From Arcobacter porcinus (lineage in GTDB: Bacteria; Campylobacterota; Campylobacteria; Campylobacterales; Arcobacteraceae), in assembly GCF_004299785.2 (NCBI RefSeq), contig NZ_CP036246.2, positions 1,178,001 to 1,242,000 of the forward strand: DNA of 64,000 bases, read 5' to 3'. The notes beneath the pieces were generated by a model. That model saw only the letters and a list, made by a program, of their open reading frames with translations. It did no database searches and was not told the origin of the DNA. Positions 12,272 through 45,308 of the stretch are shown here, in pieces. The position numbers were made by a program, and so were the translations under genes. Within the stretch, counting starts at the first letter, position 1. Every line of letters starts with the position of its first letter.

Positions 12272-12348
12272 GGGTCGTTAGCTCAGCTGGTTAGAGCACT
12301 CGGCTCATAACCGAGTGGTCGAAGGTTCGAGTCCTTCACGACCCACCA
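12272..12348 (+). tRNA. tRNA-Met (anticodon CAT), island integration target
   Basis: A 77-nt cloverleaf: acceptor GGGTCGT with ACGACCC, discriminator A, encoded CCA. The anticodon stem CTCGG/CCGAG encloses CTCATAA (CAU), and the T loop is GGTTCGAGTCC. The A73 and the elongator-like D arm favour elongator Met; a tRNA-Ile2 reading via lysidine cannot be excluded by eye. It is 5 bases after tRNA-Ser. Its last 48 bases recur at 45261-45308, so its 3' half is the left attachment site of the island. Confidence 0.93.
12301..12348. repeat. Left attachment site (attL), 48-bp direct repeat copy 1
   Basis: The stretch from the anticodon stem to the CCA end of tRNA-Met is identical to 45261-45308. Similarity continues for eight more bases with one mismatch (position 12349). 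The copy keeps the tRNA gene intact. Confidence 0.93.
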
Positions 12349-12415: not shown

Positions 12416-12438
12416 TTTTTTTACCACTTTTTTACCAC
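12416..12438 (+). repeat. Paired TTTTTACCAC repeats, left end (putative integrase arm sites)
   Basis: Two tandem copies of T-tract plus TACCAC at 12416-12427 and 12428-12438, 68 bases right of the attL core. The same motif pair, same orientation, is found near attR. Short direct repeats flanking a tyrosine-recombinase core are typical arm-type binding sites; the function is inferred. Confidence 0.5.
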
Positions 12439-12625
12439 AAGCACTATTTTTTAAATATTTATTAATTTTTTAATATAACTTTTTTATTTAAGCAAAAAAA
12501 TCCACTTTATTAAAATTTGCTATATAAAGATTTATTTACATTAATCATAATTATCAATTATTATTCATTTTAGCTTCAAATTTTTTTATTTACAAATTTT
12601 ATATTTCTTACTAGAATAGCTCTAT

Positions 12626-12725
12626 AAATATTTAGAGCTTGGTAAGCGAACAATCTGCTTGATAGTTTTATAACTTTATAAAGTTATCAAGCTCTAAGTA
12701 TTTATTAGATTGTTCGACTTACCAA
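12626..12725. other. 100-bp block of interleaved inverted repeats
   Basis: Arm A (12626-12640) pairs with 12689-12703 over 15 positions with one G:U. Arm B (12639-12656) pairs with 12707-12725 with a single bulge. Order is A-B-hairpin-A'-B', so the two pairings cross and are either alternative or a pseudoknot. A perfect 16-bp palindrome (12671-12686) sits in the middle within a CTTGAT/ATCAAG stem. No ORF covers it. It could be an RNA switch, a replication or transfer origin, or part of the structured region that follows. Confidence 0.5.
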
Positions 12726-12789
12726 ATCTACAATCTAATCACTTACTAAATTCACTTTATCAATATATTTGTTTTTATTTCAAGATATA

Positions 12790-13469
12790 TAAAATGTATT
12801 GATTGTTTAGGAGGAATATAATAGCCCGCAACAGTTTGGCGACCACACGAGCTATTAATATATAGATAATAAATATAACATAAATAAATAAATTTTTCAA
12901 TACTTTGTTTTTAAAAATCGTCTTAAATGATGAGGATAAAGTACTGCTTGTTAAAAAGATAGGCATAATCTCTTGTGTCTGATGAAGTAAGCATCTGTGA
13001 GGCTAATTCTAGTTGTCTGTATCTCACAAAAACGCCATTTGCTGAACAAATAAAAAAGAGACCGCATTGCGGTTGTAGTGAGATAGGAAACTATTGAAGC
13101 TAATAAGATGGACTACATGCAGATATGGCGTAGTGTTTGATACTAGACTCTCAACCAAGCTTGAGGTATTTTTGCTAAGTCTAGTTATATAACCTTACTT
13201 TGAACTAACAATCACTGATATAAATTATAACCTTAATGATATGTAAAATATATGGTATCGCATTACCCACCATGAATCCTCGCTAGTATCAGCATGTAAA
13301 AGTACTAGCTTTAGCGATAGAGACTCATTCCAAGGGTATTTTATCACAAAAGTTTGGAAGTTCTAATGCCAAACTTTTGCCCGCTCCAAAGATCTAAATC
13401 CAGAGTATTCTATAATTTTTCTAGAAAATATCTATACATATAGTTCTTAATACTATAAATAGGCTGATT
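12790..13469. ncRNA. Candidate large structured RNA, ORF-free and GC-elevated
   Basis: No convincing reading frame on either strand. Three 60-base lines counted here (12961, 13021, 13261) are 40-42% G+C, clearly above the AT-rich surroundings. Stems visible: 13020-13027 with 13078-13085 enclosing a GCATTGC hairpin; ACGCCAT 13032-13038 with ATGGCGT 13125-13131, crossing the first as a pseudoknot; CTAGACT/AGTCTAG 13143-13182 enclosing CTCAA/TTGAG; GCTAGTA/TACTAGC near 13282-13310; and an 11-bp stem CAAAAGTTTGG/CCAAACTTTTG about 13348-13377. TATAAAAT near 12787 could be a promoter for the plus strand, but the direction is uncertain. Known giant RNAs GOLLD and ROOL also sit in mobile elements near tRNAs, but I cannot match their sequence. 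Confidence 0.4.
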
Positions 13470-13515
13470 TGGAATGACTCAAAAGTATACACAAATCAAT
13501 TCAGTTAATTAAAAC
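13470..13515. mobile_element. Solo IS3-family terminus (relic)
   Basis: The block starting TGGAATGACTC and ending in CAGTTAATTAAAAC matches, over about 46 bases, the reverse complement of the IS3-like end at 27211-27259. No transposase accompanies it. From here to 13750 I see no gene, only AT-rich sequence with a weak stem CGACAGAG/CTTTGTCG near 13674-13717. Confidence 0.6.
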
Positions 13516-13750
13516 AAACCACAATAATTCCGCTTGAAGATAATGAGAGTTTGATAACTTCCAAAATTCTATGCTAGAGTTATAATCTACAACATTTTCA
13601 TTAAAATTATGGAAAAATAAACAAAGTAAGATATTGGACTAAAGGTGATTTACACAGTTTAATTTATAGTCCCGACAGAGTTAAAATTCATTTGATATTT
13701 TCAATAAATCTTTGTCGATTATAAACATTTATATATATTCAAATATTTTT

Positions 13751-14416
13751 TCATTTGCTTGTTTTCTCAAGAATATGCTTTCGCTTTTCCCAATCACTCA
13801 TGTATAGTGATAAATAATTATAAAATTCTTTAGAATGATTTGGATAGATCAAATGAACCAGTTCATGAAAAACTACATATTCTATACAAATTTTTGGCTT
13901 TTTTATAAGTTCAATGTTAAGATTTATATATGATTTATGTGGGTTACAGCTTCCCCATCTTGTTTTCATTTGTCTTATTTTTATATCTTTTATCTCTTGC
14001 TTCACAATTTTATTAAACTCTTGCAAAATATTAAAAAAATGAAGTAATGCTTTTTCATAATACCACTCGTAAACCAAATTTTGTTTTCGTTTTAAATCAT
14101 TTTTATTTTTAACATAGATTTCTAAATAGCCTCTTTGAAGCTTAACAGCTTCTTTATTTGATTCAATGACTTTCAGCCTGTAACTTCGTCCTAAATATTT
14201 AAAATCCTCTCCACTCACATACTCTTTTTCACTTGTTTCAAATGAAGCAAAAAACTCTTTCTTTTTTTCAATCCACTTGGCTCTTTTTTTGATTATAAAT
14301 TTTATATGCTCATCACTAGTCATCTTTGGAGCAGTTAAAATTACTTCTCCAGAAGGTTTTACTTTTAAAGTGATATTTTTTACATCCTTTTTAGTAATTT
14401 GAATGTTTTCAAGCAT
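13751..14416 (-). CDS. YgjP/DUF45-type zinc metallopeptidase (SprT-like)
   Basis: A 221-residue protein with the DUF45 layout: N-terminal beta region, then TRWGSC and finally FHELVHLIYPNHSKEFY, giving HExxH plus a downstream His ligand. Members resemble SprT and WLM peptidases and often sit beside type I restriction genes, but their substrate is unknown. It is the last gene of the hsd operon, overlapping hsdR by 8 bp, so it is cotranscribed. A role in trimming or turnover of the restriction complex is possible but unproven. Confidence 0.82.
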   Translation of the reverse strand: MLENIQITKKDVKNITLKVKPSGEVILTAPKMTSDEHIKFIIKKRAKWIEKKKEFFASFETSEKEYVSGEDFKYLGRSYRLKVIESNKEAVKLQRGYLEIYVKNKNDLKRKQNLVYEWYYEKALLHFFNILQEFNKIVKQEIKDIKIRQMKTRWGSCNPHKSYINLNIELIKKPKICIEYVVFHELVHLIYPNHSKEFYNYLSLYMSDWEKRKHILEKTSK

Positions 14417-17400
14417 AAAAACTTATACCTATACCTCTAATAGTTTGATAAATTTTCTCTTTGTTTTCGATTGATATATCATATTCATCTTCTACATCCC
14501 AAAGAACATCTTCCATTGCACTTGTTATTTCATTTTCGACATCTTTATTTTTATGCCATTCAGGTTTTTTAGAAGCTCCTAAATAAATCTCATCAAATTT
14601 CAAAGTCAAATTTTTAACAATCAAATCAAAATCAACAACTTCTAAGTTGCCCAAAATATCACTCAAGTTATCATAAATGGCAATTAAAGTTTTTTTATTT
14701 TCAAACTCTTTTGGGTATTTATCCTCATTTGGTTTTGACATACCTGTAATTAAGTCTTTTAATTGTTTTGCTTTTGCCAATTTTTCCTCTTCACTGAGTC
14801 TTTTAGCTTTATATTCATTAATTACATCTTCTATTTGTTGGGCAATTGACTTATAAAATGCTGGGTTTGAGTCCATTTTTTCTTTTACTACCGCACTTAC
14901 GGCACTCAAAATTGTGTCAGCTTTTGCACTTTTACCCTCAACTCTTTGAACCTCTTCTTCAAACTCTGTTTCAAATATATTTACAAGCCTTGTAAGTTCA
15001 TTAACCTCTTTGGCACTTACAAAGGTGTCAAGTAGCTTTTGCATCTGCTCTTCATATTTTCCAAAGTCACAAGTTTCGTGATATCTTAACTGCACTACTT
15101 TTCTTAGTTCATTGTAAAATTTGATTTTTTTCTTATAAAGCTTTATTTCATTTTCACTTAAAATATCATCAATTTTTTCACTAGAAAGAGCTAATTTAAA
15201 AGCTCTAGCTAAGTGTGATAACCACTCTTTGAAATCATCTCTTTTAGTAATATCTGCTAAAACAACTACATAACTTTCTAAATCATCTTTGAATTTAACA
15301 TCACTAAAAAGGTCTTCTAAATGGGTATAATAAGTTCTAGCTTTTGCTATTTCAGTTCTTACATCTACTACAGCTCCCGTCAAATCCTCTGGATCAAAAC
15401 CATCAAGTGAAGCATAATTTGTCAAAGCTTGATCAAGTTCTCCTAGAAGACCTCTATAATCCACAATATACCCATAATCTTTTCCATCATAAAGTCTATT
15501 TACCCTTGCAATTGCTTGTAAAAGGTTATGTTCTTTTAATTGTTTATCTATATAAAGTGTACTTGCTCTTGGTGCATCAAAACCAGTTAAAAGCTTATCC
15601 ACAACAATAAGCAAATCTATCTCACACCCGTGGATAAATTCATTTTTTACATATTTTAGATACTCTTCTTCACTTCCATAGTTCTTAATAGTCTCTTGCC
15701 ATGCTTTTGCAACATACTCTTTATTTCCACCATCTAGTTCTTCATGCTCATTGCTTGAGATTACATAGGCAGTTCTTATATCTCCATACTCTTCAAAAAT
15801 CTCATGATATTTTATAGCCTCGTACTTGCTACTTGTTGCAAACATCGCTTTAAATCCACTATTTGCCATTTTTAGAGTTTTTTTGAAGTGTTCATTGATG
15901 TCTAATGCTATAAGCTCAAGTCTTTGCTCACTTGATGCAACTTTTTGAAATCTTGCCCATTTGTGTTGCAAGTCTCTTTTTGCATCATCACTTAACTCTC
16001 GTGAAATCATATTAAATTTTCGCACCAATCCATCTGGGCTAAGTACCTCTTGATCTACCAGTCTTCCTTCATAAAGTAGTGGTAAAACAGCTCCATCTTT
16101 TACAGCGTCATCTATGGTATATCTATGTATTTCACCACCAAACTTTAAAAAACTGTTTTTATTTTTCTCTTTTTTAAGAAGTGGTGTTCCTGTAAATCCA
16201 AGATAACAAGCAAGAGGTAGAGCTTTTTTCATGGCATTGTGCAAATCTCCACCTTGAGTACGGTGAGACTCATCTACTAGCACGAATACATTGTTATCAT
16301 TGATAACAGTTTTTGAGTTTCTTACCTTTTCAAACTTATGTACAAGTGTTGTAATCACACTTATACCGCTTTGAAGTTTCTCTATTAAATCACTTCCACT
16401 ACTTGCTCTTCCTGCTTTGATATCCGTATTTTCAAAAGTTTTATGAATCTGCTCATCCAAATCAACTCTATCGGTTACTACTATGATTTTTGCATTAGTG
16501 TAAGTTATTTTTAGAAGTTTTGTAAGCATTACCATTGTCAGAGATTTACCACTTCCTTGAGTATGCCAAATAAGTCCGCCTGCTCTTATACCATCTGTTA
16601 TCTTTTCTACCCTTTTAAGCGTTTTTTCAATCCCAAAAAACTGTTGATAACGGCAAACTTTTTTTGTTTTATGATCAAATAGAATATAGTGTCTTATCAG
16701 TCTTAACAGCCTATCTTTTGATAAAAGTGCAAAAAGTGTAAGGTCAAGACTGCTTATTTCTCTATCTTGTACCATAGTTTTTAAAGTCTCTTTTGCCTTT
16801 TGGTTCTCTTCTTCTTTCCATAAACTATAAAACTTTAAAGGTGTTCCCATAGTTCCATATCTAGCTTCATTACTATTTGCTGCAATGGTTAGTTGGATAT
16901 ATTTAAATAGATGAGGAATTTCATCTTTCTTTTGCTCTTTTTCAAGTTGTTTGATACCATTTTCATAGTTTACACTTGATTTTTTTAGCTCAATCACCAC
17001 TAGTGGGATACCATTTACAAACACGACTAAATCAGGTCTTCTAGTCTTTGTAATTTCATTTTGGTTGGCACGATCTACTATAAACTCTTCTGTTACAAAG
17101 AAGTGGTTATTTTCAATATTTTCAAAGTCGATATATTTAAAAGAGAAACTTTTTTTAGTACCATCATCAAGATTCTCTTCATAGCTAGTACCTAAAAGTA
17201 GATGATTAGTGATTTTCTCATTTGCTACGATTAATCCCTCATTTAAAGATACATCTAAGTCTTCTACTGCTTTGGATATATTATTGGCACTAAATTTATA
17301 GTTTTGTCCTTTGTATTCATAACTATTGATGGCATAAAGTCTCTCTATAAGTATTTTTTTAAGAAGTACGGCAGATGTTTTGTTTTCTCTGAAAATAAGA

Positions 17401-17498
17401 TTATCTTCTTTGCTTATAAACTTATATCCAAACTCTTTATGGCTCAAAAGATCGATACAGTTTTGTTGTATTACTTGCTCTAATGTTATATTTTCCAT
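14409..17498 (-). CDS. hsdR: Type I restriction enzyme R subunit
   Basis: A 1029-residue HsdR. The N-terminal nuclease has RRPDLVVFVNGIPLVVIELKKS (PD-ExK site). The motor follows with Walker A TQGSGKS at about residue 313-320, LVDESHR as the DEAD-type motif, and GFTGTPLL as motif III; VDKLLTGFDAP and QAIARVNR are motifs V-VI. The C-terminal helical domain docks on the methylase. It translocates DNA and cuts unmethylated sequence when joined to HsdM/HsdS. The start is 2 bp after the Fic stop. It appears intact. Confidence 0.95.
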   Translation of the reverse strand: MENITLEQVIQQNCIDLLSHKEFGYKFISKEDNLIFRENKTSAVLLKKILIERLYAINSYEYKGQNYKFSANNISKAVEDLDVSLNEGLIVANEKITNHLLLGTSYEENLDDGTKKSFSFKYIDFENIENNHFFVTEEFIVDRANQNEITKTRRPDLVVFVNGIPLVVIELKKSSVNYENGIKQLEKEQKKDEIPHLFKYIQLTIAANSNEARYGTMGTPLKFYSLWKEEENQKAKETLKTMVQDREISSLDLTLFALLSKDRLLRLIRHYILFDHKTKKVCRYQQFFGIEKTLKRVEKITDGIRAGGLIWHTQGSGKSLTMVMLTKLLKITYTNAKIIVVTDRVDLDEQIHKTFENTDIKAGRASSGSDLIEKLQSGISVITTLVHKFEKVRNSKTVINDNNVFVLVDESHRTQGGDLHNAMKKALPLACYLGFTGTPLLKKEKNKNSFLKFGGEIHRYTIDDAVKDGAVLPLLYEGRLVDQEVLSPDGLVRKFNMISRELSDDAKRDLQHKWARFQKVASSEQRLELIALDINEHFKKTLKMANSGFKAMFATSSKYEAIKYHEIFEEYGDIRTAYVISSNEHEELDGGNKEYVAKAWQETIKNYGSEEEYLKYVKNEFIHGCEIDLLIVVDKLLTGFDAPRASTLYIDKQLKEHNLLQAIARVNRLYDGKDYGYIVDYRGLLGELDQALTNYASLDGFDPEDLTGAVVDVRTEIAKARTYYTHLEDLFSDVKFKDDLESYVVVLADITKRDDFKEWLSHLARAFKLALSSEKIDDILSENEIKLYKKKIKFYNELRKVVQLRYHETCDFGKYEEQMQKLLDTFVSAKEVNELTRLVNIFETEFEEEVQRVEGKSAKADTILSAVSAVVKEKMDSNPAFYKSIAQQIEDVINEYKAKRLSEEEKLAKAKQLKDLITGMSKPNEDKYPKEFENKKTLIAIYDNLSDILGNLEVVDFDLIVKNLTLKFDEIYLGASKKPEWHKNKDVENEITSAMEDVLWDVEDEYDISIENKEKIYQTIRGIGISFYA

Positions 17499-17500
17499 AT

Positions 17501-18220
17501 TTAAGCCACCAAGTGAGTATTTTGCTTGATATAGTAATTTACTAAATACTCTATCGCTTTTTCGATGTCATTATTGTCATAAAACTCAATCATTACCTTA
17601 TTAAATTCCAATCTATCTTTTGCTTTTATATTCAAAATAGGATAACCACTATCTAAAAGTATTCCATTCATCATAAGTCTTGATGTTCGTTTATTACCAT
17701 CAAAGAAAAATTGACTTTTAGCACCAAATAAAAAGTATGTTATAGCTTTAATTATTGGGTGAACTATTTGATTTATCTCTTTTACGCCCTCATCAAAAAT
17801 AGAATTTAACTCATCGGCTTTTGGTGGTAAATAATCTGTTCCACCTATATTTACTCCACTTGTTCTAAACTCTCCCCAAGTTATAGCTTCTTCTTCTGCC
17901 ACTTTGCCATGAAGCTTTAAAAGTGTAGATCTATCTATACAAAATTCACCCTTTTCTATCAGCTCAAAGAGTAGATTTACACTTCTGTTTTGATTAAGGA
18001 TCTGTTGCTCATCGCTTAGTTTGTGTCCACCTACTGTAATCCCTTCCAAAAGTGTCTGCACCTCTGGAAAAGTCATATCATTTCCCTCTAATGCAGAAGT
18101 ATTATAGATGAAATCTATCTTGTCTTTTTTCGCTAAGCTAAACGATAAATTTTTATTTGGTACAAAAATACTTAGATTTGTTGTACTTATGTTGTTGATA
18201 ATTTCGCTATTTATTTTCAT
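17501..18220 (-). CDS. Fic-domain protein with catalytic His replaced
   Basis: Start taken at ATG 18220, which overlaps the previous stop (ATGA) and follows GGGAGG. About 239 residues. The motif reads SQFFFDGNKRTSR where active Fic enzymes have HxFx(D/E)GN(G/K)R, so Gln stands in place of the catalytic His while Asp, Gly, Asn and Arg persist. An N-terminal inhibitory-type motif TSALEGN is present. AMP transfer is therefore doubtful; it may bind nucleotide or act as a regulator. It lies between an AlbA_2 regulator and hsdR within the restriction operon. Confidence 0.85.
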   Translation of the reverse strand: MKINSEIINNISTTNLSIFVPNKNLSFSLAKKDKIDFIYNTSALEGNDMTFPEVQTLLEGITVGGHKLSDEQQILNQNRSVNLLFELIEKGEFCIDRSTLLKLHGKVAEEEAITWGEFRTSGVNIGGTDYLPPKADELNSIFDEGVKEINQIVHPIIKAITYFLFGAKSQFFFDGNKRTSRLMMNGILLDSGYPILNIKAKDRLEFNKVMIEFYDNNDIEKAIEYLVNYYIKQNTHLVA

Positions 18221-19560
18221 TGTTTTACCTCCCAATGTCCGCCTTTAGCACCGCCTATTCGCTGGATAATATTTTTATCTTTTAGTATTTTAATATGTTT
18301 TTCTATTGCTGTTGTGCTGATTCCAAGTTCAGTAGCAAGTGCTGTAATTGCAATTTTTGGGTTATTTTGCATAAGCTTTATGATGTTTTGTTGTGTTTCA
18401 CCCAACTTTTCACCCAACTTTTCACCCAACCCATTAGGTGAACTTTTATCAGTATTAAAATAAAACTCAACCCATAAACCATTTTCCCATTTAAATTGTG
18501 GAGTTATACCATTAAACTTTTGTGATTCTTCTATGATTTTTTCTATCCCTCTTCCCCAAGACTCAATATATCCAGCTAGGAAAAATGGATATGCAACTAG
18601 AGGATTATGTGGTTCAGATGTATGTTTTCTCAAAAGTGTATCTATAGTCCAGTTTTGTGGTAAATCTCCTGCATTCCACATAAGAACTTTATCATCATAA
18701 ACACTTATTTGTATACTATTTTGTGAACTATAATCTTTATGAACAACTGCATTAATTAAAGCTTCTCTAAAAGCTAACTCTGAAATTGGAAAACTCTCTA
18801 CTCTTTGAATACCCTCATAAGTGATAAAAGCACTAAGATATTTTGTAAATATAAGCTCCATTACTTTATCCACTTGCTCAAATAGATTTCCTTCTATAAC
18901 ATCTTGATATATTAGTTCTGTATTTGATTTAAAATATCCTATTTTAATCATACTTCCCATTACATATTTCATAGGCTCTTTTGCAAACAATAGTGCAGCA
19001 GCTCTCTTTAGATAATCACCTTCACGAAGTCGTAGTTTATTTATTAAAACATCATCATTTTCTTTTAAAAGCTCGGGATCTATTCTTCTTTTTTTCTCAG
19101 CTTTTTCTCTAAATAGTTTAAAAGCATAAGGGTCTAAATCTGTAGCTCCAAAATAAGGAACTGGTACACTATCCCAAGTTTTACCCTGTTTTCCAAGTAA
19201 AAATTTATCTAAAGCCACACCTTTTAACTCTTGTGTTGTGCTTCCACTTCTGTAGTAGTATGAGCCTTTATAGCTTATAGGGTATGGGTATTTATCTGTG
19301 ATGATTTCAATGTACTCTTTATCTTCATCTTGCAAAAGATTGACATCTACCATGATTCCTAAAATATCTCGTACTTTGTTTGGTATATCTTCAAGAAGTT
19401 TTTTGGCATTATCAATGCCTTTAATTTCACCATCATCATCAACACCGATATAAAGCTTTCCACCATCAGTATTACCAAATGCACTAAGCCATTTGATATA
19501 CTCATCTCTCCAAGTTTGTTTAAACTCTATGTTTTGTGATTCGTTAATTTGTAGTTTCAT
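18217..19560 (-). CDS. AlbA_2/Schlafen-type putative DNA-binding transcriptional regulator
   Basis: Start set at ATG 19560 behind GGAAAAG. About 447 residues. The N-terminal AlbA_2 domain carries NIEFKQTW and FGNTDGGKLYIGVDDDGEIKG. A GHKL-like ATPase C-terminal part follows (FREALINAVVHKDYS, then GYIESWGRGI). The end is a winged-helix TQQNIIKLMQNNPKIAITALATE that reads like a MarR-type HTH. Between them is a short GEKL repeat encoded by a 12-bp tandem repeat. Such proteins are frequent in hsd loci and may control the operon; that is inference. Confidence 0.8.
   Translation of the reverse strand: MKLQINESQNIEFKQTWRDEYIKWLSAFGNTDGGKLYIGVDDDGEIKGIDNAKKLLEDIPNKVRDILGIMVDVNLLQDEDKEYIEIITDKYPYPISYKGSYYYRSGSTTQELKGVALDKFLLGKQGKTWDSVPVPYFGATDLDPYAFKLFREKAEKKRRIDPELLKENDDVLINKLRLREGDYLKRAAALLFAKEPMKYVMGSMIKIGYFKSNTELIYQDVIEGNLFEQVDKVMELIFTKYLSAFITYEGIQRVESFPISELAFREALINAVVHKDYSSQNSIQISVYDDKVLMWNAGDLPQNWTIDTLLRKHTSEPHNPLVAYPFFLAGYIESWGRGIEKIIEESQKFNGITPQFKWENGLWVEFYFNTDKSSPNGLGEKLGEKLGETQQNIIKLMQNNPKIAITALATELGISTTAIEKHIKILKDKNIIQRIGGAKGGHWEVKQ
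18397..18430. repeat. 12-bp tandem repeat inside the AlbA_2 gene
   Basis: About 2.8 copies of TTCACCCAACTT, encoding GEKL-type repeats before the C-terminal HTH. The unit is a multiple of three, so copy-number change would alter linker length and keep the frame. Confidence 0.8.
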
Positions 19561-19575
19561 ATTCTTTTCCAAATT

Positions 19576-21633
19576 TTATTTTTGTGAATCAAGAATAGAT
19601 TTTATTTCAACTTCTAATGTTTTATAAATTTCTTCTTTAAATCCATAGTATTTATATAATCCTGATTGTATTATTTTTCTAAACTTTAAAGTCATTTCTT
19701 TTATAAATTCTATTTTATTTCTGTAAAAATAACTTAGAATAGTTAAAGAGACAGAAACTATCCAAATAATCTTTTGTGTGGTATTATCCCATTCTAAAAT
19801 CATTGCAGTTTTTACAAAGATTATTAAAACTAAAAAAACAAAAATAAATTTTAATAAAGAACAAATATAATCTAATTTCTTTTCACTTTTTTCTTTTTTC
19901 TGAATTAAAGTAGATAATTTTTCTTGTTGCTGTAATAAATATTTTTCTTTATAGTTATTTGCTTCATTTTCTTTATTAATCAAGTTTTCTTGTAACTGTG
20001 TATTCTTTTGAGTGATATTTTCATGTTCAAGTTCTAATTGTTTTTTTTCTAATACTGTATTTTGCAAAACTTCCTCAAGTTCAATATTTTTATTACCAGA
20101 TTCAATGGCAAGTTTTTTTACGTTTTCATGTTCTAATATATAATCATCTAAAGTCGAGTCTAAAGATGACAAAATATCATTCATATTTTCATCTTGCAGT
20201 TCTTCTGGCAATTTAGAACGAGTTTTTAATTCACATAAAACTTTTAAAGCTATATCTTCCGTAATTGAACCATTATTTATTTGTTGTTGAAGTTCTAAAT
20301 AACTATTTCTAATCTTTTCTGTTAGATGTGATGATAATAAAATTTGTGCTTTTGTAGTTATTTTAAAAGAAATTGGACAATCTTTTTTTCCAAAACCTTT
20401 ATTTAATTTAAACCAAAACTTATTTGTTAGAAATTGCATATTTGTAGCTAAGGGAACTTGTCCTTGTTCTTTTATGGTTTCATCCCAAGCAACTAAATTA
20501 ATATGTCGAGATTCTGTTAAAAGAATATAACCTATATTTTCAAAATTATTTTGTTCTCGTTCTCCTCTTTTAATGCTTATATAATTCAATTTTTTAGTAA
20601 TATCTTCAATATCATCAACTTCTTGATATTTATCATATAATTCACTTGTCGTAATATTAAACTTATGATTTTCTGTTTTATAAATATCTTCCATATTTTC
20701 TTCAAAAATACCACTATTTGACAATAAGCTAAAAAGCTTTTCTTTTTTAATTAAAATATCTGTTGAACTTGTACATCCATTGATTATATTTCTCATCGCT
20801 GAAGCATTTATATTTACAGAAGAACCTTTTTGAATTATATTTTCTGCAGAGTAAAAAAAGGATTCTATCTCTTCTTTGGTTTCCGCCAAATATTTTAAAT
20901 GGATATATTTTTGTTTCGCATTTATTTCTTTAATTAATAAATATAAATCATCAATTAATGTTTTATATAAAGTTCCATTGTAACCTGCAAAATGAAAAAT
21001 AATTTCCATATTTACATAAATTGTTAAATTTGTATTCCATATTTTTGTCTGTAAATTTGGATTATATTTAAGTCCTGTATATAATACAACTCCCTCTCTT
21101 ATTGTATCCCATGTATTAATAAACTCAACATTATTTTTGTTTTCAATTATAAAAGCACTTATAAAATCTGAGTATCCATTATCAACCCTATTATCTAATA
21201 TAAAATTAGATAATGCGTGCTCAATATCATTTTTATCTTTATCAGAAAGTTTCTTATTGTTTTTTAATTCAATATATTCATGTAACTGAGAAATAAGTAA
21301 TATATGTTTTTCTGAATTAAGATTTTTTTGTTTTTCTATATTAAAAGAATCTAACTTAGATGAGTCATTTATAGTAAAAAGACCATTTTTATTAGTTAGT
21401 GCATCAATTTTCTTTAAACTTAATGCAACAACAGCATCAGGAATTTGAAAATCATAAGTTTCATTTAGTAGACTATTAACTTCTTTTGAACTGAAAGAAT
21501 AGAGACCATTTGTTTTTATTATATCAACAATAAATTCATTAAGTATGTCATTTATACTTTTACCAGATTCTTGCAATTGCCTAAAAACAGCAAGAGATGC
21601 TAATAGATTACTATCTGAGATTTTCTTATTCAC
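19576..21633 (-). CDS. Membrane-anchored coiled-coil protein, possibly PIN-like
   Basis: 685 residues from GTG 21633 preceded by AGAGGAAG. Roughly residues 1-200 are helical. Residues about 200-430 include TIYVNMEIIFHFAGYNG, LAETKEEIESFF and YILLTESRHINLVAW followed by PLATNMQFLTNKFWFKL. This order of strands resembles a large PIN-like nuclease, although the first position reads V-N rather than the expected D-T. A long coiled coil (about 470-580) leads to two transmembrane helices (about 592-640) and a cytoplasmic tail. The family is not otherwise known to me. It sits next to DUF2188 and a protease, suggesting a membrane-located effector. Confidence 0.6.
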   Translation of the reverse strand: MNKKISDSNLLASLAVFRQLQESGKSINDILNEFIVDIIKTNGLYSFSSKEVNSLLNETYDFQIPDAVVALSLKKIDALTNKNGLFTINDSSKLDSFNIEKQKNLNSEKHILLISQLHEYIELKNNKKLSDKDKNDIEHALSNFILDNRVDNGYSDFISAFIIENKNNVEFINTWDTIREGVVLYTGLKYNPNLQTKIWNTNLTIYVNMEIIFHFAGYNGTLYKTLIDDLYLLIKEINAKQKYIHLKYLAETKEEIESFFYSAENIIQKGSSVNINASAMRNIINGCTSSTDILIKKEKLFSLLSNSGIFEENMEDIYKTENHKFNITTSELYDKYQEVDDIEDITKKLNYISIKRGEREQNNFENIGYILLTESRHINLVAWDETIKEQGQVPLATNMQFLTNKFWFKLNKGFGKKDCPISFKITTKAQILLSSHLTEKIRNSYLELQQQINNGSITEDIALKVLCELKTRSKLPEELQDENMNDILSSLDSTLDDYILEHENVKKLAIESGNKNIELEEVLQNTVLEKKQLELEHENITQKNTQLQENLINKENEANNYKEKYLLQQQEKLSTLIQKKEKSEKKLDYICSLLKFIFVFLVLIIFVKTAMILEWDNTTQKIIWIVSVSLTILSYFYRNKIEFIKEMTLKFRKIIQSGLYKYYGFKEEIYKTLEVEIKSILDSQK

Positions 21634-21667
21634 TATTTTCTTCCTCTTTTTTTAAATTCAAAATATT

Positions 21668-21901
21668 TCACTTCTTATCTCTTGGTGGACAAGGATCATT
21701 TCCATAGCTATTTCCTGCTCTTATTCTTCCATCTTCACTATGTATTTTTGTATCAGATTTTTGATTTTTTGCAATTTGTTCAGCTGTTTTTATAGCTTCT
21801 TTTTGCGTTTGAGTTACTTTCGTAGCTTTAGTATTTCCTGCGCCTTTTACAGCCCATCCATTTTCATGTTTTACTACATGTTGATTTTTACCTTTTGGCA
21901 T
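21668..21901 (-). CDS. DUF2188 small protein
   Basis: 77 residues, Lys-rich. HVVKHENGWAVKGAGNTKATKVTQTQKEAIKTA is the DUF2188 pattern (H-x-V-x-x-x-x-x-G-W-x-V-K, then a K/T-rich helix), with a C-terminal RIRAGNSYGNDPCPPRDK extension. Function of the domain is unknown. Its ATG overlaps the end of the protease gene by 14 bp, so the two are translationally coupled. A partner or substrate role for the protease is an inference from the coupling. Confidence 0.75.
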   Translation of the reverse strand: MPKGKNQHVVKHENGWAVKGAGNTKATKVTQTQKEAIKTAEQIAKNQKSDTKIHSEDGRIRAGNSYGNDPCPPRDKK

Positions 21902-22709
21902 CTTCTATTTCCTTAATATGTTTTAATACTTCCTCTTTCAATGCTAATATTTCTGAAGCTTTAATGTAATATCCTAAATTAATCATTACCTGTGTATTGC
22001 TGTAAACTTCTTGTTTTGTTGGTATATCTCTTACAACAATTTTTCCTTCTGTATCAAAAGTTGGTCCTGCATACAACACACCCAATAATCCAAATCTTTG
22101 TGCTATTACGGTATTCCCATTTTTATCAGTATAGTTATCATCTACAATAAATATAGGTGAACCAGAAGAACCAGGAAAACAAGCTGCATCAATTAAACCA
22201 ATTTTTTCCCCTTTAAAATTTATGGTAGGATGACTTGAAGTCACACCTTTCCTAAATATAGGCAGATTATGAACATCGTCCCAAAGACCTATCGGATAGC
22301 CAACCATAACAATATCTTCCATTGTTTTTAATTCAGATAACTGTTTATCATTCCATATATTGTTTTCACCTATTGGAACATAATATATAGCTTTTTTTAG
22401 TGTTGAATTGCAATATTCAACCAACGGTTGAAAAAGACAACAGCATAAATCATATTTTGAATGCTCTATCCAATTAGTTTGATATTCAACATTAATATTT
22501 TCATCGGTTGGTTGTTGGTTGTAAGCCACATGTAAACTCAACGAAATGACATCAGCATCATTAACTACATGTTTATTTGTTATGATTACTGGAATTCTCA
22601 TATCTTCATTTGTAAATTCAAAAAAGAAACCAGTACCTGTTCCTGTTTTTGTGTTGATTTTTACAGTTGAAAATAGTAGTTTTTCGGTAATAGCTTGTGG
22701 ATTTATCAT
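21888..22709 (-). CDS. Trypsin-like serine protease domain protein
   Basis: 273 residues with a chymotrypsin-fold triad visible: His47 in IITNKHVV, Asp87 in SKYDLCC, and Ser182 in PGSSGSPIF. No signal peptide, so it acts in the cytoplasm. GTGTGFFFEF precedes the His strand as in other trypsin-like peptidases of defence loci. Its ATG overlaps the hsdS stop (ATGA) and its end overlaps DUF2188. Three cysteines in a row follow the Asp. Protease domains of this class act as effectors in several anti-phage systems; activation of this one is unknown. Confidence 0.82.
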   Translation of the reverse strand: MINPQAITEKLLFSTVKINTKTGTGTGFFFEFTNEDMRIPVIITNKHVVNDADVISLSLHVAYNQQPTDENINVEYQTNWIEHSKYDLCCCLFQPLVEYCNSTLKKAIYYVPIGENNIWNDKQLSELKTMEDIVMVGYPIGLWDDVHNLPIFRKGVTSSHPTINFKGEKIGLIDAACFPGSSGSPIFIVDDNYTDKNGNTVIAQRFGLLGVLYAGPTFDTEGKIVVRDIPTKQEVYSNTQVMINLGYYIKASEILALKEEVLKHIKEIEDAKR

Positions 22710-23863
22710 GCTTTAACTCTCACTTGCCCTGTTAGTAGTTTTTGCATAAGTGCTTTTTTTTGAAGTTTTAATTCTTCAAGTTCATTTTTAAGAAGATTTA
22801 TCTCATCATCGGCAAGGCTTAAAACTTCGGCTATTTTTTGTTGTTCTGGGAGAGATGGAAGTTTGATGTGTAATATTTGTAAATCTTTTGGATAAATATG
22901 TGGTTGAGCTCCTCCACTTTGTAATGCAAAAATTCTATTTTGTATTAGTGAAAGAAAAAAGAAAAGATATTTTGTATCTGAAATACTTTTTTTCCCTTTA
23001 ATTGTAAAGCTATCTGATACAAAAATAGGCTCTTCAAAATAATTTATAAAACCAGCACTTGCTCCACTACTACTTACTGTTATTGTTTTACCAATCCTAT
23101 TGTGCTCATTATGATAATAGGCAGGTTCTTTACCACCTGCAATAACGGGAATGCTTCCTTCTTTCAAATTTGCTATTGTAAAAGCTGTTCCTTTTTTAAA
23201 TTCTCCAATCTCTCCCAACTTCACTTCTTCCCACTCATCATTAAATCCATCAAAACGAACTTCACCACTTAAAAGCTTTTGCATTAAACCTTTTTTTTGT
23301 AGCTCTTTTGATTCTAAAAGCTCGGTTTGTTTGGTGATAGCTTCATCCCAAGTTGTGAGAATCTGGGCTATTTTTTCTTGCTCTTTTAGGGGTGGAAGGG
23401 GGATTGAAAATTCGTTTAATGTTTTTTTATCTATATTTGGAAAAGTTGAACCAGATGTGAGTTTTAAAATTTTTTCACTTAAAATATTCAAAATTTGCTC
23501 AATAAAATCTATATTACCCTTTTGTTTTTTATTGCTAATTGCAGCAACACCTCTTCCAATGCAATATTCATCATTAGAAATATTTATTCTACCTGTTGAG
23601 CTACCACGAACACATATTAAAATATCACCTTTTTTGCATAATTTTGTTGGCTTTGAAGTCCATTGTTTCTTTATAGGGTATCTAACTGTAAATTCTGTTG
23701 GTCCATTTATTAAAGCAACTCCTATTCGTTCAGTGTTGTAAGTATCCCCTAAAGGCGATTGTCCCATTTCAACATTTGCTATTTTTGAAAGTCCACCAAC
23801 CTCCCAATCCTCAGGAATAATCCCCACTTTTGTTTGCTTGTAGCCTTGTTTGAATTCACTCAT
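22706..23863 (-). CDS. hsdS: Type I restriction enzyme specificity subunit
   Basis: Start set at ATG 23863 (MSEFKQGYKQTKVGIIPEDWEV) behind GAGGAT, rather than an upstream TTG. About 385 residues with two target-recognition domains. The first ends in PLPPLKEQEKIAQIL and the central helical repeat KKGLMQKLL; the second ends in LPSLPEQQKIAEVLS and KKALMQKLLTG. It sets the bipartite DNA target of the M2S1 methylase and R2M2S1 nuclease. It is separated from hsdM by dinD, an unusual but recurrent insertion. Target sequence cannot be read by eye. Confidence 0.93.
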   Translation of the reverse strand: MSEFKQGYKQTKVGIIPEDWEVGGLSKIANVEMGQSPLGDTYNTERIGVALINGPTEFTVRYPIKKQWTSKPTKLCKKGDILICVRGSSTGRINISNDEYCIGRGVAAISNKKQKGNIDFIEQILNILSEKILKLTSGSTFPNIDKKTLNEFSIPLPPLKEQEKIAQILTTWDEAITKQTELLESKELQKKGLMQKLLSGEVRFDGFNDEWEEVKLGEIGEFKKGTAFTIANLKEGSIPVIAGGKEPAYYHNEHNRIGKTITVSSSGASAGFINYFEEPIFVSDSFTIKGKKSISDTKYLFFFLSLIQNRIFALQSGGAQPHIYPKDLQILHIKLPSLPEQQKIAEVLSLADDEINLLKNELEELKLQKKALMQKLLTGQVRVKA

Positions 23864-24704
23864 AGTTTTTATCCTCAAGGTTTTTTTGTGACTTTTCTAT
23901 TTTGGTTACACTCTCTTTTGGAGTTGGTAAATTCTCTGGCATAGTTCCACCCAGCTCTTTTATAGTTTCTCTTACTTTTTTGCCTACTTCATAGTATGTT
24001 TGGTTTGCTTTTGTTTTACCTTGGATATTATCTCTTTTTAATTTTTCCTCTGTTTGTGTTGCACGGAATAGATTGGCTGCTAGTTCTGTACTTCCCATAT
24101 AATCAAGGATTTTGTGTGATTTTTTTAGCCCTTTTGCTTTATGTATTCCTTTTGCGTCAAGTCCACCATATAAACCTTTGTATCCATGATTTTGGAATAT
24201 AGCAAAATCCAAATCAGTCTCAACTCCTGCAAGTTGTGCTGTTTCTACTAGTTGTTTGTTATGTTCTTTAAGCTCATTTCGTAAAAACACCCTTTTTTCA
24301 TCTTCTTTTAACTTAGCAAATGCTTCATCATTTTGTAGCTCTTGTCTTCTTGTTTGTATAGCAAAATATGTTTGCCCACTTGCTACTACTGGTTTACTTG
24401 GATCAGCATTTTGAACAACTAAATAACAAGCATATCTTGAAAGTGCAAAAGATGGATAAGGTGCACCTGCTCCTGAACCAATTTTTACCACCTCGGTGAT
24501 TTCAACGAGGTGGTCATCAGGATTAAATCCACTATTGATACAAGCTTCTTTTGCCTTAGCAATTACATTTTGAAAATTCCTAAAATCCGAATATCCTAAA
24601 AGTTTTGCTAATTCTCTTGCATACCAAAATTCATTGCCATCTTGGTCTATTTGCTTTATTTCTTCAAATGTTTGGTGGTGTTGTAGTTCAATATCTTTTT
24701 TCAT
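23856..24704 (-). CDS. dinD: DNA-damage-inducible protein D-like (DinD)
   Basis: 282 residues. ATFEEIKxIDxxGxEFWYARELAKLLGYSDFRNF and HLVEITEVVKIGSGA followed by LSRYACYLVVQNADPSKPVVASGQTYFA match DinD/BRO-N-type proteins, including the ETKANQ-like GKTKANQTYYEVGKKVR tail. In E. coli DinD is LexA-controlled and modulates RecA. It starts 1 bp after hsdM and overlaps hsdS, so it belongs to the operon. A damage or RecA link for the restriction system is inference; no SOS box is apparent here. Confidence 0.85.
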   Translation of the reverse strand: MKKDIELQHHQTFEEIKQIDQDGNEFWYARELAKLLGYSDFRNFQNVIAKAKEACINSGFNPDDHLVEITEVVKIGSGAGAPYPSFALSRYACYLVVQNADPSKPVVASGQTYFAIQTRRQELQNDEAFAKLKEDEKRVFLRNELKEHNKQLVETAQLAGVETDLDFAIFQNHGYKGLYGGLDAKGIHKAKGLKKSHKILDYMGSTELAANLFRATQTEEKLKRDNIQGKTKANQTYYEVGKKVRETIKELGGTMPENLPTPKESVTKIEKSQKNLEDKNYE

Positions 24705-24705
24705 C

Positions 24706-26205
24706 TTATAGCCCCAACTGTTTTAGATAACCACTCATTTTTGATTTTATCGCTACTAACTCATTTTCGATATTTTCGATATTTGTTTTGGTAGCATCTA
24801 AATCGATGATTTCCTCTTCTTCAAATGTATCTACATATCTTGGTATATTTAAGTTATAGTCATTTTCTTGTATCTCTTCAAGTGTCGCTACATGTGAGTA
24901 CTTCTCTATCTCTTTTCTATTTTTATAAGTTTCTACTATCTTTTTTATGTCGTTATTTTCTTCATCTTCTCTAAGATAATTTTGATTTTTGCCTTTTCCA
25001 TACTCACGACTTGCATCGATAAATATAATATCTTTATTTGGTCTATTCTTCTTGAATATTAAAATACAAGCTGGTATTGAAGTTCCAAAAAATAAGTTTG
25101 CAGGTAAGCCAATAACTGCATCAAGAAGATTATCTTCAATAAGTTTTGTTCTAATTTTGCCTTCACTTGCTCCTCTAAATAATACACCATGAGGTAATAT
25201 TACTCCCATTTTCCCATTAGAATTAAGTGAACTAATCATATGAAGAACAAAAGCAAAATCTCCTTTACTTTTTGGTGGTGTTCCATATTTAAATCTTCCA
25301 AAGCTATCTTCACTTGCTATCTCTTCTCCCCATTTATCAAGACTAAACGGTGGATTTGCTACTACTACATCAAATGTTTTAAGAAGATTGTCTTGTAGAT
25401 GAAGTGGATTTCTTATCGTATCTCCCCACTCGATAACTGCATCGTTTATCTCATGTAAAAACATATTCATCTTACAAAGTGCTTGAGTTTGTCCATTTCT
25501 CTCTTGCCCATAAAGACGGAAGTTTTTACTTCCTATCTCTTTTGATGCTTTAATAAGTAGTGAACCAGAACCACAAGTTGGATCATAAATCATATCTCCC
25601 TCTTTTGGCTCAACTAGTTTTGCTAAAAGAGTCGATACTTCACTTGGTGTATAAAATTCTCCACCTTTTTTCCCTGCATCACTTGCAAAGTGTGAGATAA
25701 GATACTCATAAGCATCTCCTATTACATCATTTCCCTCTAACATTGAAGGTCTAAGATCTAGTCTTGTATCACTAAAGTCTTCGATAAGGTTTTTTAGTAT
25801 TGTGTTTCTCTCTTTTGTATCACCTAGTTTGTTTTTGTTGTTGAAGTCTATGCTTCTAAAGATACCTTCAAGTTTGTCCCTATTGTCCTCTTCGATTCTC
25901 TCAAGTACTTTGTTCATTATCTCACCAAGATTAGAAGCCTCTTTGTGTTTAACCAAATAATCAAATGTACAACTCTCATCAAGTCTAAATTTTTCTCTTT
26001 TTAGCTTTGCTTCTATTCTATCAGTCTTATCACCGTACTCTGCTTGAAGCTGTTCTAGTTTTTCTTTGTAAAAATCAGATAGATACTTCACAAATAGCAT
26101 CGTAAGAACATAATCTTTATAATCACTTCCATCCATTGTACCTCTGAATGTATCGCAAGCTTTCCATACTACATTGTTGATTGTGCTTTGAGTCGTTTTT
26201 TGCAT
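24706..26205 (-). CDS. hsdM: Type I restriction-modification methyltransferase subunit
   Basis: 499 residues of normal HsdM length. The helical N-terminal domain (WKACDTFRGTMDGSDYKDYVL) is followed by FYTPSEVSTLLAKLV, SAM motif I DPTCGSGSLLIKA, and catalytic motif IV ANPPFSLDKW of N6-adenine methylases. It methylates the target adenine together with HsdS. AAGGAGAAT precedes the ATG and the previous half-S gene ends 4 bp upstream. Confidence 0.97.
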   Translation of the reverse strand: MQKTTQSTINNVVWKACDTFRGTMDGSDYKDYVLTMLFVKYLSDFYKEKLEQLQAEYGDKTDRIEAKLKREKFRLDESCTFDYLVKHKEASNLGEIMNKVLERIEEDNRDKLEGIFRSIDFNNKNKLGDTKERNTILKNLIEDFSDTRLDLRPSMLEGNDVIGDAYEYLISHFASDAGKKGGEFYTPSEVSTLLAKLVEPKEGDMIYDPTCGSGSLLIKASKEIGSKNFRLYGQERNGQTQALCKMNMFLHEINDAVIEWGDTIRNPLHLQDNLLKTFDVVVANPPFSLDKWGEEIASEDSFGRFKYGTPPKSKGDFAFVLHMISSLNSNGKMGVILPHGVLFRGASEGKIRTKLIEDNLLDAVIGLPANLFFGTSIPACILIFKKNRPNKDIIFIDASREYGKGKNQNYLREDEENNDIKKIVETYKNRKEIEKYSHVATLEEIQENDYNLNIPRYVDTFEEEEIIDLDATKTNIENIENELVAIKSKMSGYLKQLGL

Positions 26206-27169: not shown

Positions 27170-27210
27170 TTTTAATTCCTTCAATTATTTACAATTTTCT
27201 CTAAATTGTT

Positions 27211-27259
27211 GTTTTAATTAACTGAATTAATTTGTGTCTACTTTTTAGGGGTCATTCCA
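27211..27259 (-). mobile_element. IS3-family terminus with outer tip TGGAATGACCCC
   Basis: Read on the minus strand the tip is TGGAATGACCCC then AAAAAGTAGACACAAATTAA. The same end occurs solo at 13470 and 34576. The orientation puts the OrfA fragment on its inside, as expected for an IS left end. Confidence 0.65.
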
Positions 27260-30926: not shown

Positions 30927-33900
30927 TTGGATAATTATAATAAATTACAAGATCAATTAAAAATATATGATCCGATTAAAACTACATCAGTTTTTTCGTC
31001 ATTATTGTTAAATCCTAAATATCATTACCATCAATATACATTTGAAATGATTATTAAATATTCTCTATCTTTTTGTAAAGGCAGTCAAACTCCTACACGT
31101 GAACTAATAAACAATATTTATAATGAAATTCATAATAATGTTTCTATGATGGAAGACCCTGTTGAAGATATATTTGTATCAAAGCTTTGGTTTGATGATA
31201 AAAGTTATAAAGTACAATCTGGTCTATGGGAAGGAGGTATTCATAGTACACAAATTATATTAAAAGTTTTAGAGCATTTACCTAATGAAAATTTCTTCTT
31301 AAAAATAAAAAAACAGATTAAATCTATATTAGAAGTGTCTAATATCATTATTGAAAAAAACGGTATAACGTGTAATGAATTATTAAATACAAGTCCTGTT
31401 GAAACGATAGATGATGAAGACTTAGTAAATATCGAAGAATTAATAAATAATGTAAAAATTACTTATGCAAATTTTAATTTACCTTTACTTCAAGAAAGTA
31501 GTTTTAGTACACTTTTCAATGAAACATTAGGCAATTGCATTTTAGAAAGAAATCCCTTTTATATAGTTCAAAATAATGTATATCTTTTATTACCTACTGC
31601 TATAATAGCTAGTATTAGAAGAATTGTAATAGAATTTTTTATTACCTATGATAAAAAAGATTTATTTATAGATTATTATGGACAAATATTATCAGAAGAA
31701 TTATATAAAACTAGAATTTTTGGAAAATTTGATGGTATGCCAATAAAATTTTATAAAAAAGAAGGAATATCAACTTTCAGATTTTCAGAGAATACACTTC
31801 AATTTGATAAAAATTACTTTTTTCATTTTATTTTTGTATTAGATACATTAGAAAATTTAGAAAATAGTTGGTTTGATGGGTTTGCTAAAGATGAAAAATA
31901 TAAAGTTTCTGATTTTATAGACAGTAGGATAGAAAATGCAAAACAAAATATATTAGATAAGGATATATATAATAAAGGTTGTAGTTTTATTGTACCATGT
32001 GGTGTAGGTAGAGGTTTTGTTTTGTCATCAAAATTTAAAGTAAATGACAATTGGTTTTGTGAATCAATTAGTAATCATGATTTAATAACTATAAGCAATG
32101 ATTTAGATTGTTTCCCAAATTTAATTTGGAGAATAGTTGAGGCACAGTATAAATTAAAAAAAGATGGTACACAAATATTAAATTTCAATGGCTTTCTAAA
32201 TCTTTATGGATATGTTAAAGAGAATAATTATTCAATTTTTGTAAATGAATCTTTTGATGAAGAGGTAAGTACACAACCATTTAATATGATAACAATAGGA
32301 AGTGATTACAATGCTTATATAAGAGAAAAAGTTGCATTAGATACAGATTATAGAGAAGTTATTGATATGGATGGAAAAACTATAATTGTGCGAAAAGGAT
32401 TTGCAAGTTCATTTTTTTCTACAAATATTAAATACAATCTTTATATTCCAGAAAAGTTTGATCAAAAAACTTTTATTGCTATTTATATTAATTATGGTTA
32501 CGAAATATGGCTAAAGCAAACTATAGATAGTAAGTATGATTTTACATTACAATTTAAATTATTTGATGCTTTAATTACTTGGTTTTCTAAAATGATGTCT
32601 ATTTTAAATAATTATAATATTCAAATAGATAAAAATTTAAAATTATGGAATGTAGAATTTACTTTAATTGAAGATTTATCTCATTTAGAAAAAAATATAG
32701 ATAAAGTAGATATATTTAATTCATTTAACAATACATATAATAATTCTATCTTAGATACAAAATTTAATATTAATATGCTAAAAGGTTTTATGTTCGAAGA
32801 AAATTATTCTGAACAATCAATGGTAAATGCATTTTTGAACTATTTAAGCCTAGACCCAAAAAGTATTGATATTTTATTGAAAGAAATATTTATAAATAAA
32901 GATGCAAGGTTATTCCATTTCTTTAAAGCACATAAATATAGAGAACACTTTGATATTTCAGAAAAAAAGCCAATCTCAATACATCAAATTGATGAACAAA
33001 TTATCAAGCTAAATTTAGGTTGGAGTTGTAGAAAAAGGGAAGAGGGCAATATAGTTGAAGGTATAGATGAATGTACTAAATATTTAAATAGTTTAATGGA
33101 TGTTGTTTGGAAAAATTTACAATCTAAATTAAAGATAATAGAAAGAGAAGAATTAATCAAAAAATTATTGATTAATTATGAGTACAGTGATAAAGAGAAA
33201 GACATTTGGGGAATTACTTTTAAATCAAATTTAGCATTTCAGGAAGATAAAAATAATTTGTATAAAGTGGCAATAAATAAAATTGGTGAATATAATGCAA
33301 TTTCTTTATCTTCAAGATTAGTGATTGAAATGGCTATATGTGAATGTTCAGTTAATTGTGGTAAAAGTGTATCTAAATTAGATATTCAAGAGTTATTAAG
33401 TCTTGCTTCTTTTATGCATTTAATTGGAGGTTTATCAGAAGCAATAAAATATGAAGCTATTACTCCAAGAATAGTTATTTCTAGTTTTGGTGACATTTTA
33501 TTTGAACAATCTTTTAATGAAATGATTATGCATAAATTTGGTTATATGGCAAATCAGAAAATTTTAGATTATGAATCAACCAAATATAGTGAAAAATTTA
33601 AAGAAAAAGAATATACAAAAGAAACAAATCATTTATTTGAAAAAGAGTTTATGGAGTCTTACATAGATGAATTTGGATATACAATTGATGATGCAAGATT
33701 ATTCTTAGATTTTTTAGAAGATTATGGCTTAAAAATTAATAAATTGGTTTATAGTATAACTTATAATGAACTAATAGAACAATTTGATGAATATAACAAA
33801 GAGGTCTTTATTAAAATATTAGATTCATTAATTATTCATATGAGAAAAGATTGGACTTCTATTCCAAAACCTTTTAAATCAACTGATTGGCAACCTTGGA

Positions 33901-45260: not shown

Positions 45261-45308
45261 CGGCTCATAACCGAGTGGTCGAAGGTTCGAGTCCTTCACG
45301 ACCCACCA
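45261..45308. repeat. Right attachment site (attR), 48-bp direct repeat copy 2
   Basis: Identical to 12301-12348, the anticodon stem through CCA of tRNA-Met. The 5' half of a tRNA is absent here, so this is a duplicated fragment and not a gene. Confidence 0.93.

Follow-up and report, generated by a model that had tools for sequence, protein, structure and literature searches.

What occupies the roughly 680 bases beside the tRNA genes at the start of a mobile element in Arcobacter porcinus, where no protein seems to be encoded? A preliminary description of this stretch of DNA (64,000 nt, hereafter the window, in whose coordinates positions are given) had proposed positions 12790-13469 as a candidate large structured RNA. 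Homologs, covariation, and an att repeat with its integrase now support that proposal, and we are nearly certain that the region is a real structured RNA of the mobile element. From sequence comparison, we further consider it likely that positions 12624-13409 form a large non-coding structured RNA, promoter-driven and perhaps trans-acting, which belongs to a family of tRNA-integrating islands in the Campylobacterales.

A GC-raised stretch with homologs in several families

The preliminary description correctly noted that 12790-13469 has no long coding frame, as the ORFs of at least 40 aa that touch it measure 63, 44, 40, and 40 aa. Its raised base composition was also reproduced: GC content is 32.1%, compared with 26.7% in the island and 27.1% in the window, which places the stretch in the top 11% of 680-nt windows, and single 60-nt lines reach 40-42%. 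When the sequence was folded by itself, the + strand gave z = -2.65, equaled or bettered by 1 of 20 shuffles, and the - strand z = -1.27, equaled or bettered by 3 of 20. Such folding is weak evidence, and the case rests on comparison.

A blastn search against 100 relatives returned four strong, near-full-query matches outside the window's genome (84, 81, 74, and 74% identity). In the window's family, 9 of 104 genomes carry the RNA, the window's genome included, and we named this subfamily type I. Its carriers apparently include Poseidonibacter lekithochrous (Arcobacteraceae, Campylobacterales), Epsilonproteobacteria bacterium UBA4036, and Arcobacteraceae bacterium RS_7_4. Relaxed blastn limits hit 70 of the 100 genomes at E ≤ 0.01, mostly through AT-rich chance similarity or an IS3 end; stricter limits were used for that reason, and short stretches of weak similarity (34-116 nt, E 1e-7 to 1e-4) were discounted as well.

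We built a covariance model, R1, on the conserved core (12953-13063). Across the 104 family genomes it recovered the same nine carriers, plus three weak matches (E 0.02-0.09) that we dropped as chance, in G007, in G027, and at a second site in G038. Across 397 genomes of the phylum it gave 11 further weaker, consistent matches in two other families (28-37 bits). Nine of the 11 loci have a tRNA array upstream, and they have in common a core, GATAGGC...GTCTGGTGAAGTA, as well as later blocks; we named this subfamily type II. With one of these loci as the blastn query, the RNA was found in 24 of 151 genomes of the second family and 3 of 44 genomes of the third. A second model, R2, built from 26 sequences of both types, matched 21 of 398 genomes of the order, among them a genome used in neither model (G169), from a fourth family. 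Here the RNA follows another tRNA gene, tRNA-Leu(caa), at a distance of ~410 nt, and by eye has the same 5' pseudoknot with both stems, the letters of stem B being changed. We regard this fourth family as a tentative carrier because the assembly consists of 230 contigs with 4% contamination and the RNA is near a contig end. In total, 36 further genomes of the sample carry the RNA, one of them (G321) by a 66-nt match only.

The similarities among carriers do not always follow their families. The RNAs of G152 and G241 are 83-85% identical to that of G388, a carrier of another family, whereas for some members of G388's own family the values are 72% (G621) and 66% (G149). Because G152 and G241 are thus closer to G388 than some of its own relatives are, the sequences point to horizontal transfer of the RNA between families. 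Damaged copies also occur: the 3' domain is missing in G343 and G241, and a deletion reaches into the RNA of G209. In the latter (locus L088, ~2134-2343) the RNA breaks off half-way, and the next ~70 codons match a portion of a 305-aa recombinase (described below) at 86% identity, so that the break is probably a deletion junction. Separately, G047 holds a second, partial copy (L021, 4076-4230) consisting of the 3' quarter of the RNA only, 217 kb from the full copy.

Extent of the RNA gene and its predicted promoter

All nine close homologs share similarity from ~12589 to ~13409. In the upstream alignment, conservation passes the left edge that had first been proposed and continues up to a promoter-like site, which gives the following features:

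12589-12617, + strand: sigma-70-like promoter TTTACA-17-TAGAAT of the RNA, also found in homologs
12624-13409, + strand: RNA gene, with predicted start at 12624 and conserved 3' limit at ~13409

The original limits, 12790-13469, consequently need revision at both ends, since the left edge misses the 5' pseudoknot domain (12624-12739) and the right end enters an IS3-type end at 13466-13517. The type I RNA is predicted to be ~790 nt long and the type II RNA ~600 nt.

In the 50 nt preceding stem A of the pseudoknot, 21 of 31 sequences have a promoter-like site with a 10/12 match and a spacing of 17 nt (type I, 7 of 9; type II, 14 of 22); the remaining sequences score 9/12 (two) or 7-8/12 (eight). 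Shuffled 50-nt stretches average 7-8/12, and 8 of the 31 homologous sequences score no higher than this. Scanned as a whole, the RNA region of the window has about as many promoter-like sites as its shuffles (11 versus 9.4 ± 3.1). A search of the + strand of this region turned up no intrinsic terminator.

The sequence abutting the 3' side of the RNA (13466-13517) is a copy of a dispersed ~50-bp repeat that has many copies in the genus and a further one in the window at 27209-27259. This repeat is probably an IS end or remnant, because a small transposase-like ORF (IS3 type, by eye) adjoins it at locus L006.

We also looked for a conserved protein frame hidden in the homologs, a possibility that the preliminary description had named as a refutation. 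Among type I rows the stop-to-stop runs extend to 59-104 codons, and among type II rows to 70-115 codons, with some overlap among rows. The longest run of a row is interrupted by a stop in the partner in most row pairs, namely in 63 of 72 (+) and 66 of 72 (-) for type I, and in 347 of 380 (+) and 319 of 380 (-) for type II. In these longest frames, substitutions at codon positions 1, 2, and 3 number 591, 713, and 688 (+) and 1135, 1141, and 1079 (-) in type I, and 6111, 6431, and 6422 (+) and 5524, 5780, and 6187 (-) in type II. The near-even spread over codon positions, in both types and on both strands, amounts to no coding signal. A leader or riboswitch role is disfavored because, in the window, the RNA and the gene after it are convergent and because the downstream gene differs between the compared loci (by eye). 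The RNA region is neither an mRNA nor the leader of the next gene.

Compensatory changes support a conserved structure with a 5' pseudoknot

The covariation analysis exceeded all 500 of 500 shuffles in compensatory changes in both subfamilies. For type II (20 sequences), a structure of 142 pairs that includes two pseudoknotted stems has 93.0% of its cells paired; 41 pairs changed on both sides, a number that none of the 500 shuffles attained (18.4 ± 2.6), and 106 cells changed on both sides, compared with 35.0. When the 3' strands were shifted as a slide control, 12-19 pairs changed on both sides versus the 41 observed. For type I (9 sequences), the RNAalifold structure of 97 pairs has 24 changed on both sides, again more than in any of the 500 shuffles (10.1 ± 2.0) and compared with 3-7 in slides; of the five measures, that of further pair types was equaled in 9 of 500 type I shuffles. 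These comparisons should be considered under the constraints that the shuffles leave relatedness in place and that each structure was scored on the alignment from which it had been built. The alignment (A8) leaves out the 3'-truncated G343 and G241, the partial matches in G209, G659, G673, G686, and G321, and G169, which was found later.

The 5' end is an H-type pseudoknot, located at 12624-12716 in the window, and the main structural features are as follows:

12624-12645, + strand: stem A, 5' strand, pairing with 12684-12705
12647-12657, + strand: stem B, 5' strand, pairing with 12706-12716
12684-12705, + strand: stem A, 3' strand, pairing with 12624-12645
12706-12716, + strand: stem B, 3' strand, with an alternative 10-bp hairpin to ~12730-12739
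12953-13063, + strand: most conserved core, the basis of R1, with helices 12961-12967 x 12974-12980 and 12996-13004 x 13018-13028
13126-13269, + strand: long-range helix 13126-13145 x 13253-13269, largely without variation and with two-sided change in 1 of 17 pairs
13282-13309, + strand: hairpin 13282-13289 x 13302-13309, with type I covariation
13349-13377, + strand: 3' hairpin 13349-13356 x 13370-13377, with type I covariation

In type I, stem A is paired in 196 of 198 cells and 8 of its 22 pairs changed on both sides. In type II, 97.7% of the cells of stem A (13 pairs) and 94.2% of those of stem B (13 pairs) are paired, with one and three pairs changed on both sides, respectively. The two subfamilies have this pseudoknot layout in common with different letters; because the types are unalignable here, this agreement entered no count. 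An automatic pseudoknot finder recovered stems A and B in six of seven type I inputs (it failed for G135) and both stems in one of eight type II inputs (G423); it is the alignment count that supports the type II stems.

In six of nine type I sequences, a downstream strand offers the 3' strand of stem B an alternative partner over 10-12 bp (at most 2 of 200 shuffles as good). This alternative hairpin is absent in G135, G124, and G123, and is not above chance in most single type II sequences. Judging from these sequences, stem B and the downstream hairpin could possibly constitute a switch.

The preliminary description had drawn two stems crossing as a pseudoknot further downstream. Both are perfect in the window (8/8 and 7/7 pairs), but the crossing finds no support in the homologs. 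The former stem (13020-13027 x 13078-13085) keeps only 2-4 of its 8 pairs in G135, G018, G017, and G109, and its 5' strand is used instead by the covarying hairpin 12996-13004 x 13018-13028. The latter (13032-13038 x 13125-13131) retains 7/7 pairs in eight of nine homologs, where the changes are G-U swaps only, but 4/7 in the most divergent one, so that it is undemonstrated.

The RNA lies inside the tRNA end of an integrated island

The window contains an island of 33.0 kb flanked by a 48-bp att repeat, with the RNA just inside attL and directed into the island:

12301-12348, + strand: attL, the 3' part of tRNA-Met and copy 1 of the 48-bp direct repeat (a sequence repeat)
12417-12438, + strand: two tandem TTTTTTACCAC repeats near attL, candidate integrase arm sites
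43781-44896, - strand: tyrosine integrase adjoining attR (PF00589 Phage_integrase, E 5e-28)
45261-45308, + strand: attR, the identical copy 2 of the 48-bp repeat at the far end (a sequence repeat)

Both marks of a tRNA-integrated genomic island, a duplicated tRNA 3' end and an integrase, are present in the window. A query made of the joined flanks matched 28 of 31 genomes of the genus, mostly at tRNA genes only. The match (93% overall) continues for 52 bases past the junction in G018 and G020, compared with 26 bases in G015 and at most 8 in most others. The integration site is thus apparently uninterrupted in two of the 31 genus genomes, as judged from sequence.

The same plan recurs elsewhere in the order tRNA, inward RNA, cargo, integrase, and repeat, and relatives of the window's integrase lie at the far end of other RNA islands. 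We surveyed att repeats and tRNA genes in 30 of 31 regions (G621 was missed by the motif), many of which are contig ends or stretches of at most 20 kb, and absent repeats or integrases mean little for that reason. Direct repeats derived from tRNAs, 24-81 bp long, flank 10 of the 30 elements (G000, G017, G018, G038, G174, G297, G343, G403, G423, and G673), and 8 of these 10 have an integrase no more than 0.75 kb from the far copy. The repeat of G038 may represent ordinary gene copies rather than an att scar, as it is a whole tRNA-Gly gene found twice more. Element size ranges from 4 kb (G343) to 69 kb (G018). The 4-kb element (L084 / L098), with its 31-bp flanking repeat, integrase, and 3'-truncated RNA, is possibly a minimal or decaying form.

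Of the 30 regions with a located core, 21 have a tRNA gene no more than 1.2 kb upstream, as does G169. In these 21 regions, the distance from the tRNA end to the RNA core is 397-452 nt in 17/17 type II regions and 559-620 nt in 4/4 type I regions. By eye, G047, G017, G018, and some type II loci also have repeats similar to TTTTTACTAC close to the tRNA.

A sister island of ~19 kb in G015 (L144 / L078) uses the same tRNA-Met and has an integrase 71% identical to that of the window. No RNA was detected over the whole of this island, which indicates that the RNA is not a universal part of such islands. It offers a natural control for RNA function.

Cargo and proteins found with the RNA

We scanned the cargo of the window island with a defense library; cargo sets vary among islands and include anti-phage genes. 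The window's cargo is largely anti-phage:

14409-26205, - strand: type I restriction-modification genes and neighbors, including the candidate defense gene PDC-S45
30927-34583, + strand: Upx-like anti-phage protein of 1218 aa (E 2e-214; below the NCBIfam cut-off)
36967-38103, - strand: Fic-domain protein (SoFic-like)
Two further proteins of the window island recur among the RNA regions:

38658-39575, - strand: 305-aa recombinase-like (Xer-like) protein, with homologs in 13 of 30 RNA regions
41422-41877, - strand: 151-aa protein, with homologs in 11 of 30 RNA regions

Across 30 genomes (G152 left out), whose regions are incomplete, relatives of the integrase were found in 15 regions, of the 305-aa protein in 13, of the 151-aa protein in 11, and of the type I restriction-modification and Fic proteins in 10 each. 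We rejected the 305-aa recombinase as a specific partner of the RNA because it also occurs in genomes in which the RNA was not detected and has further copies in the window's genome. The 352-aa protein that follows the RNA in G123 and G124 was likewise dropped, having relatives in only 4 of 30 regions. We noticed filamentous-phage-like genes (GPA-type replication protein, secretin, and Zot family) near the RNA element of G047 (L022, 9933-15430), and, by eye, a type III CRISPR-Cas-like module inside the RNA-bearing element of G288 (L090, 8188-13828).

Possible roles of the RNA

We propose that the RNA would be transcribed from the promoter at 12589-12617 as a transcript of ~790 nt and would work in trans, as a folded RNA or an RNP, for the element itself. 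By analogy with GOLLD and ROOL, its tasks might include maintenance of the element, its transfer, or competition with other elements. Whether the RNA acts in trans is, in our estimate, an even bet. More tentatively, and with rather more doubt than confidence, it could represent a new class of large ornate RNA at the core of tRNA-targeting, defense-carrying islands, with a pseudoknot that switches partners and a fold or assembly, perhaps a multimer like those of GOLLD and ROOL, that controls mobility or the contest with phages and rivals.

The chief alternative places the function at the DNA level or in cis, as a module of the element end (arm sites, excision control, or a transcript regulating the integrase) whose RNA would act on the integration switch only. 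The near-constant distance between the tRNA end and the RNA fits such a module, as do the tandem TTTTTACYAC-like repeats between tRNA and RNA at several loci and the possible switch between stem B and the downstream hairpin in six of nine type I sequences; in an excised circle, moreover, the integrase and the RNA would flank attP in opposite directions. However, several hundred nucleotides of covarying helices far exceed what arm sites need, and the sister island of G015 has a related integrase and the same tRNA with no detectable RNA, so we consider this reading unlikely. It is less probable still that the RNA serves replication or copy control of the excised circle, for instance as a primer like ColE1 RNA II. 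Known primer RNAs are of similar length, and at least 8 of 30 RNA regions contain ParA-like genes (a cluster in G149, G174, G288, G423, and G443; Pfam matches in G038, G135, and G109), but several loop and strand sequences are invariant, which is not required of a primer.

It is very improbable that the locus is what remains of a ribozyme or of a group I or group II intron, or a protein gene that is decayed or short. ORF-less group II introns have a length near that of the present RNA, and two elements carry 3'-truncated copies. Yet conservation with compensatory change across genera is the opposite of decay, and Rfam gave nothing beyond chance-like matches for the window region at E up to 10 and, tRNAs apart, nothing for five type II loci at gathering scores. 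Rfam contains models of group I and group II introns, and these recognized no catalytic core in the window and the further loci scanned. For a protein, one could point to runs of at least 60 codons that, with frames pooled, coincide at a single column: on the - strand they do so in 8 of 9 type I rows, and in type II in 16 of 20 (+) and 14 of 20 (-) rows, to two + frames of ~90-106 aa each common to four type II genomes, and to 39 aa on the - strand common to G047 and G038; against this, the longest frames are stopped in most partner rows and codon-position bias is absent. The RNA sits at a defined place in tractable elements and is amenable to deletion, expression, and imaging. Its tie to islands carrying anti-phage genes makes its function accessible through excision, transfer, and phage challenge.

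Comparison with known RNAs

In a cmscan of the 64-kb window at the gathering score, no family of Rfam 15 matched the RNA. No real match appeared for 12600-13800 at E up to 10 or, with E up to 1, for three more type I loci, and five type II loci gave tRNAs only at the gathering score; matches below gathering were microRNA-like or other short chance matches. The preliminary description had reported no sequence match to the giant RNAs GOLLD and ROOL, and had noted that a position near tRNAs is shared with both; cmscan and the homologs agree on the two points. The RNA was not matched in 50,697 phage records or in the plasmid records searched. Five pattern scans of IMG/VR returned two matches only (L145 and L146), neither of them the RNA; both belong to one phage protein gene.

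In searchable titles, abstracts, and passages, a range that excludes subscription papers and supplements, the RNA is undescribed. As far as searched, it is therefore apparently an undescribed class, which is large, structured, and tied to tRNA-integrating islands. According to the accessible text of Stav et al. 2019, a search of GC-raised gaps in Arcobacter sp. L yielded the motifs HRC-4 (small) and sig70 (large) (PMC6429828). The search idea, GC-raised gaps of an Arcobacter genome, is the same as here; identity with the present RNA is unlikely, and HRC-4 is described as relatively small. Passages on phage ICP1 and the PLE satellites describe abundant non-coding transcripts, that of ICP1 being ~800 nt (PMC7567579). 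They are likewise non-coding RNAs of mobile elements, as far as those passages go, but come from another host and other elements, and their sequences were compared via the search of the phage collection only.

The accessible passages on very large structured bacterial RNAs name few described classes, with roles mostly open (PMC12286853). GOLLD is presented there as ornate, non-coding, and carried on mobile DNA, often near tRNA islands, with many members >800 nt, and ROOL as ~660 nt in the solved example, with multiple pseudoknots, often near tRNA islands and with no known partner protein; both form cages, and their functions are poorly understood (PMC12286853). Neither has a covariance-model match to the present RNA. 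For GOLLD, the setting differs, as GOLLD is assigned to phages or prophages whereas copies of the present RNA lie in tRNA-integrated islands; the location near tRNA genes is the same. ROOL differs further in that the present RNA had no match in the phage and plasmid records searched. In the accessible descriptions, GOLLD, ROOL, and the present RNA are alike in size class, in ornateness, and in their tRNA neighborhood.
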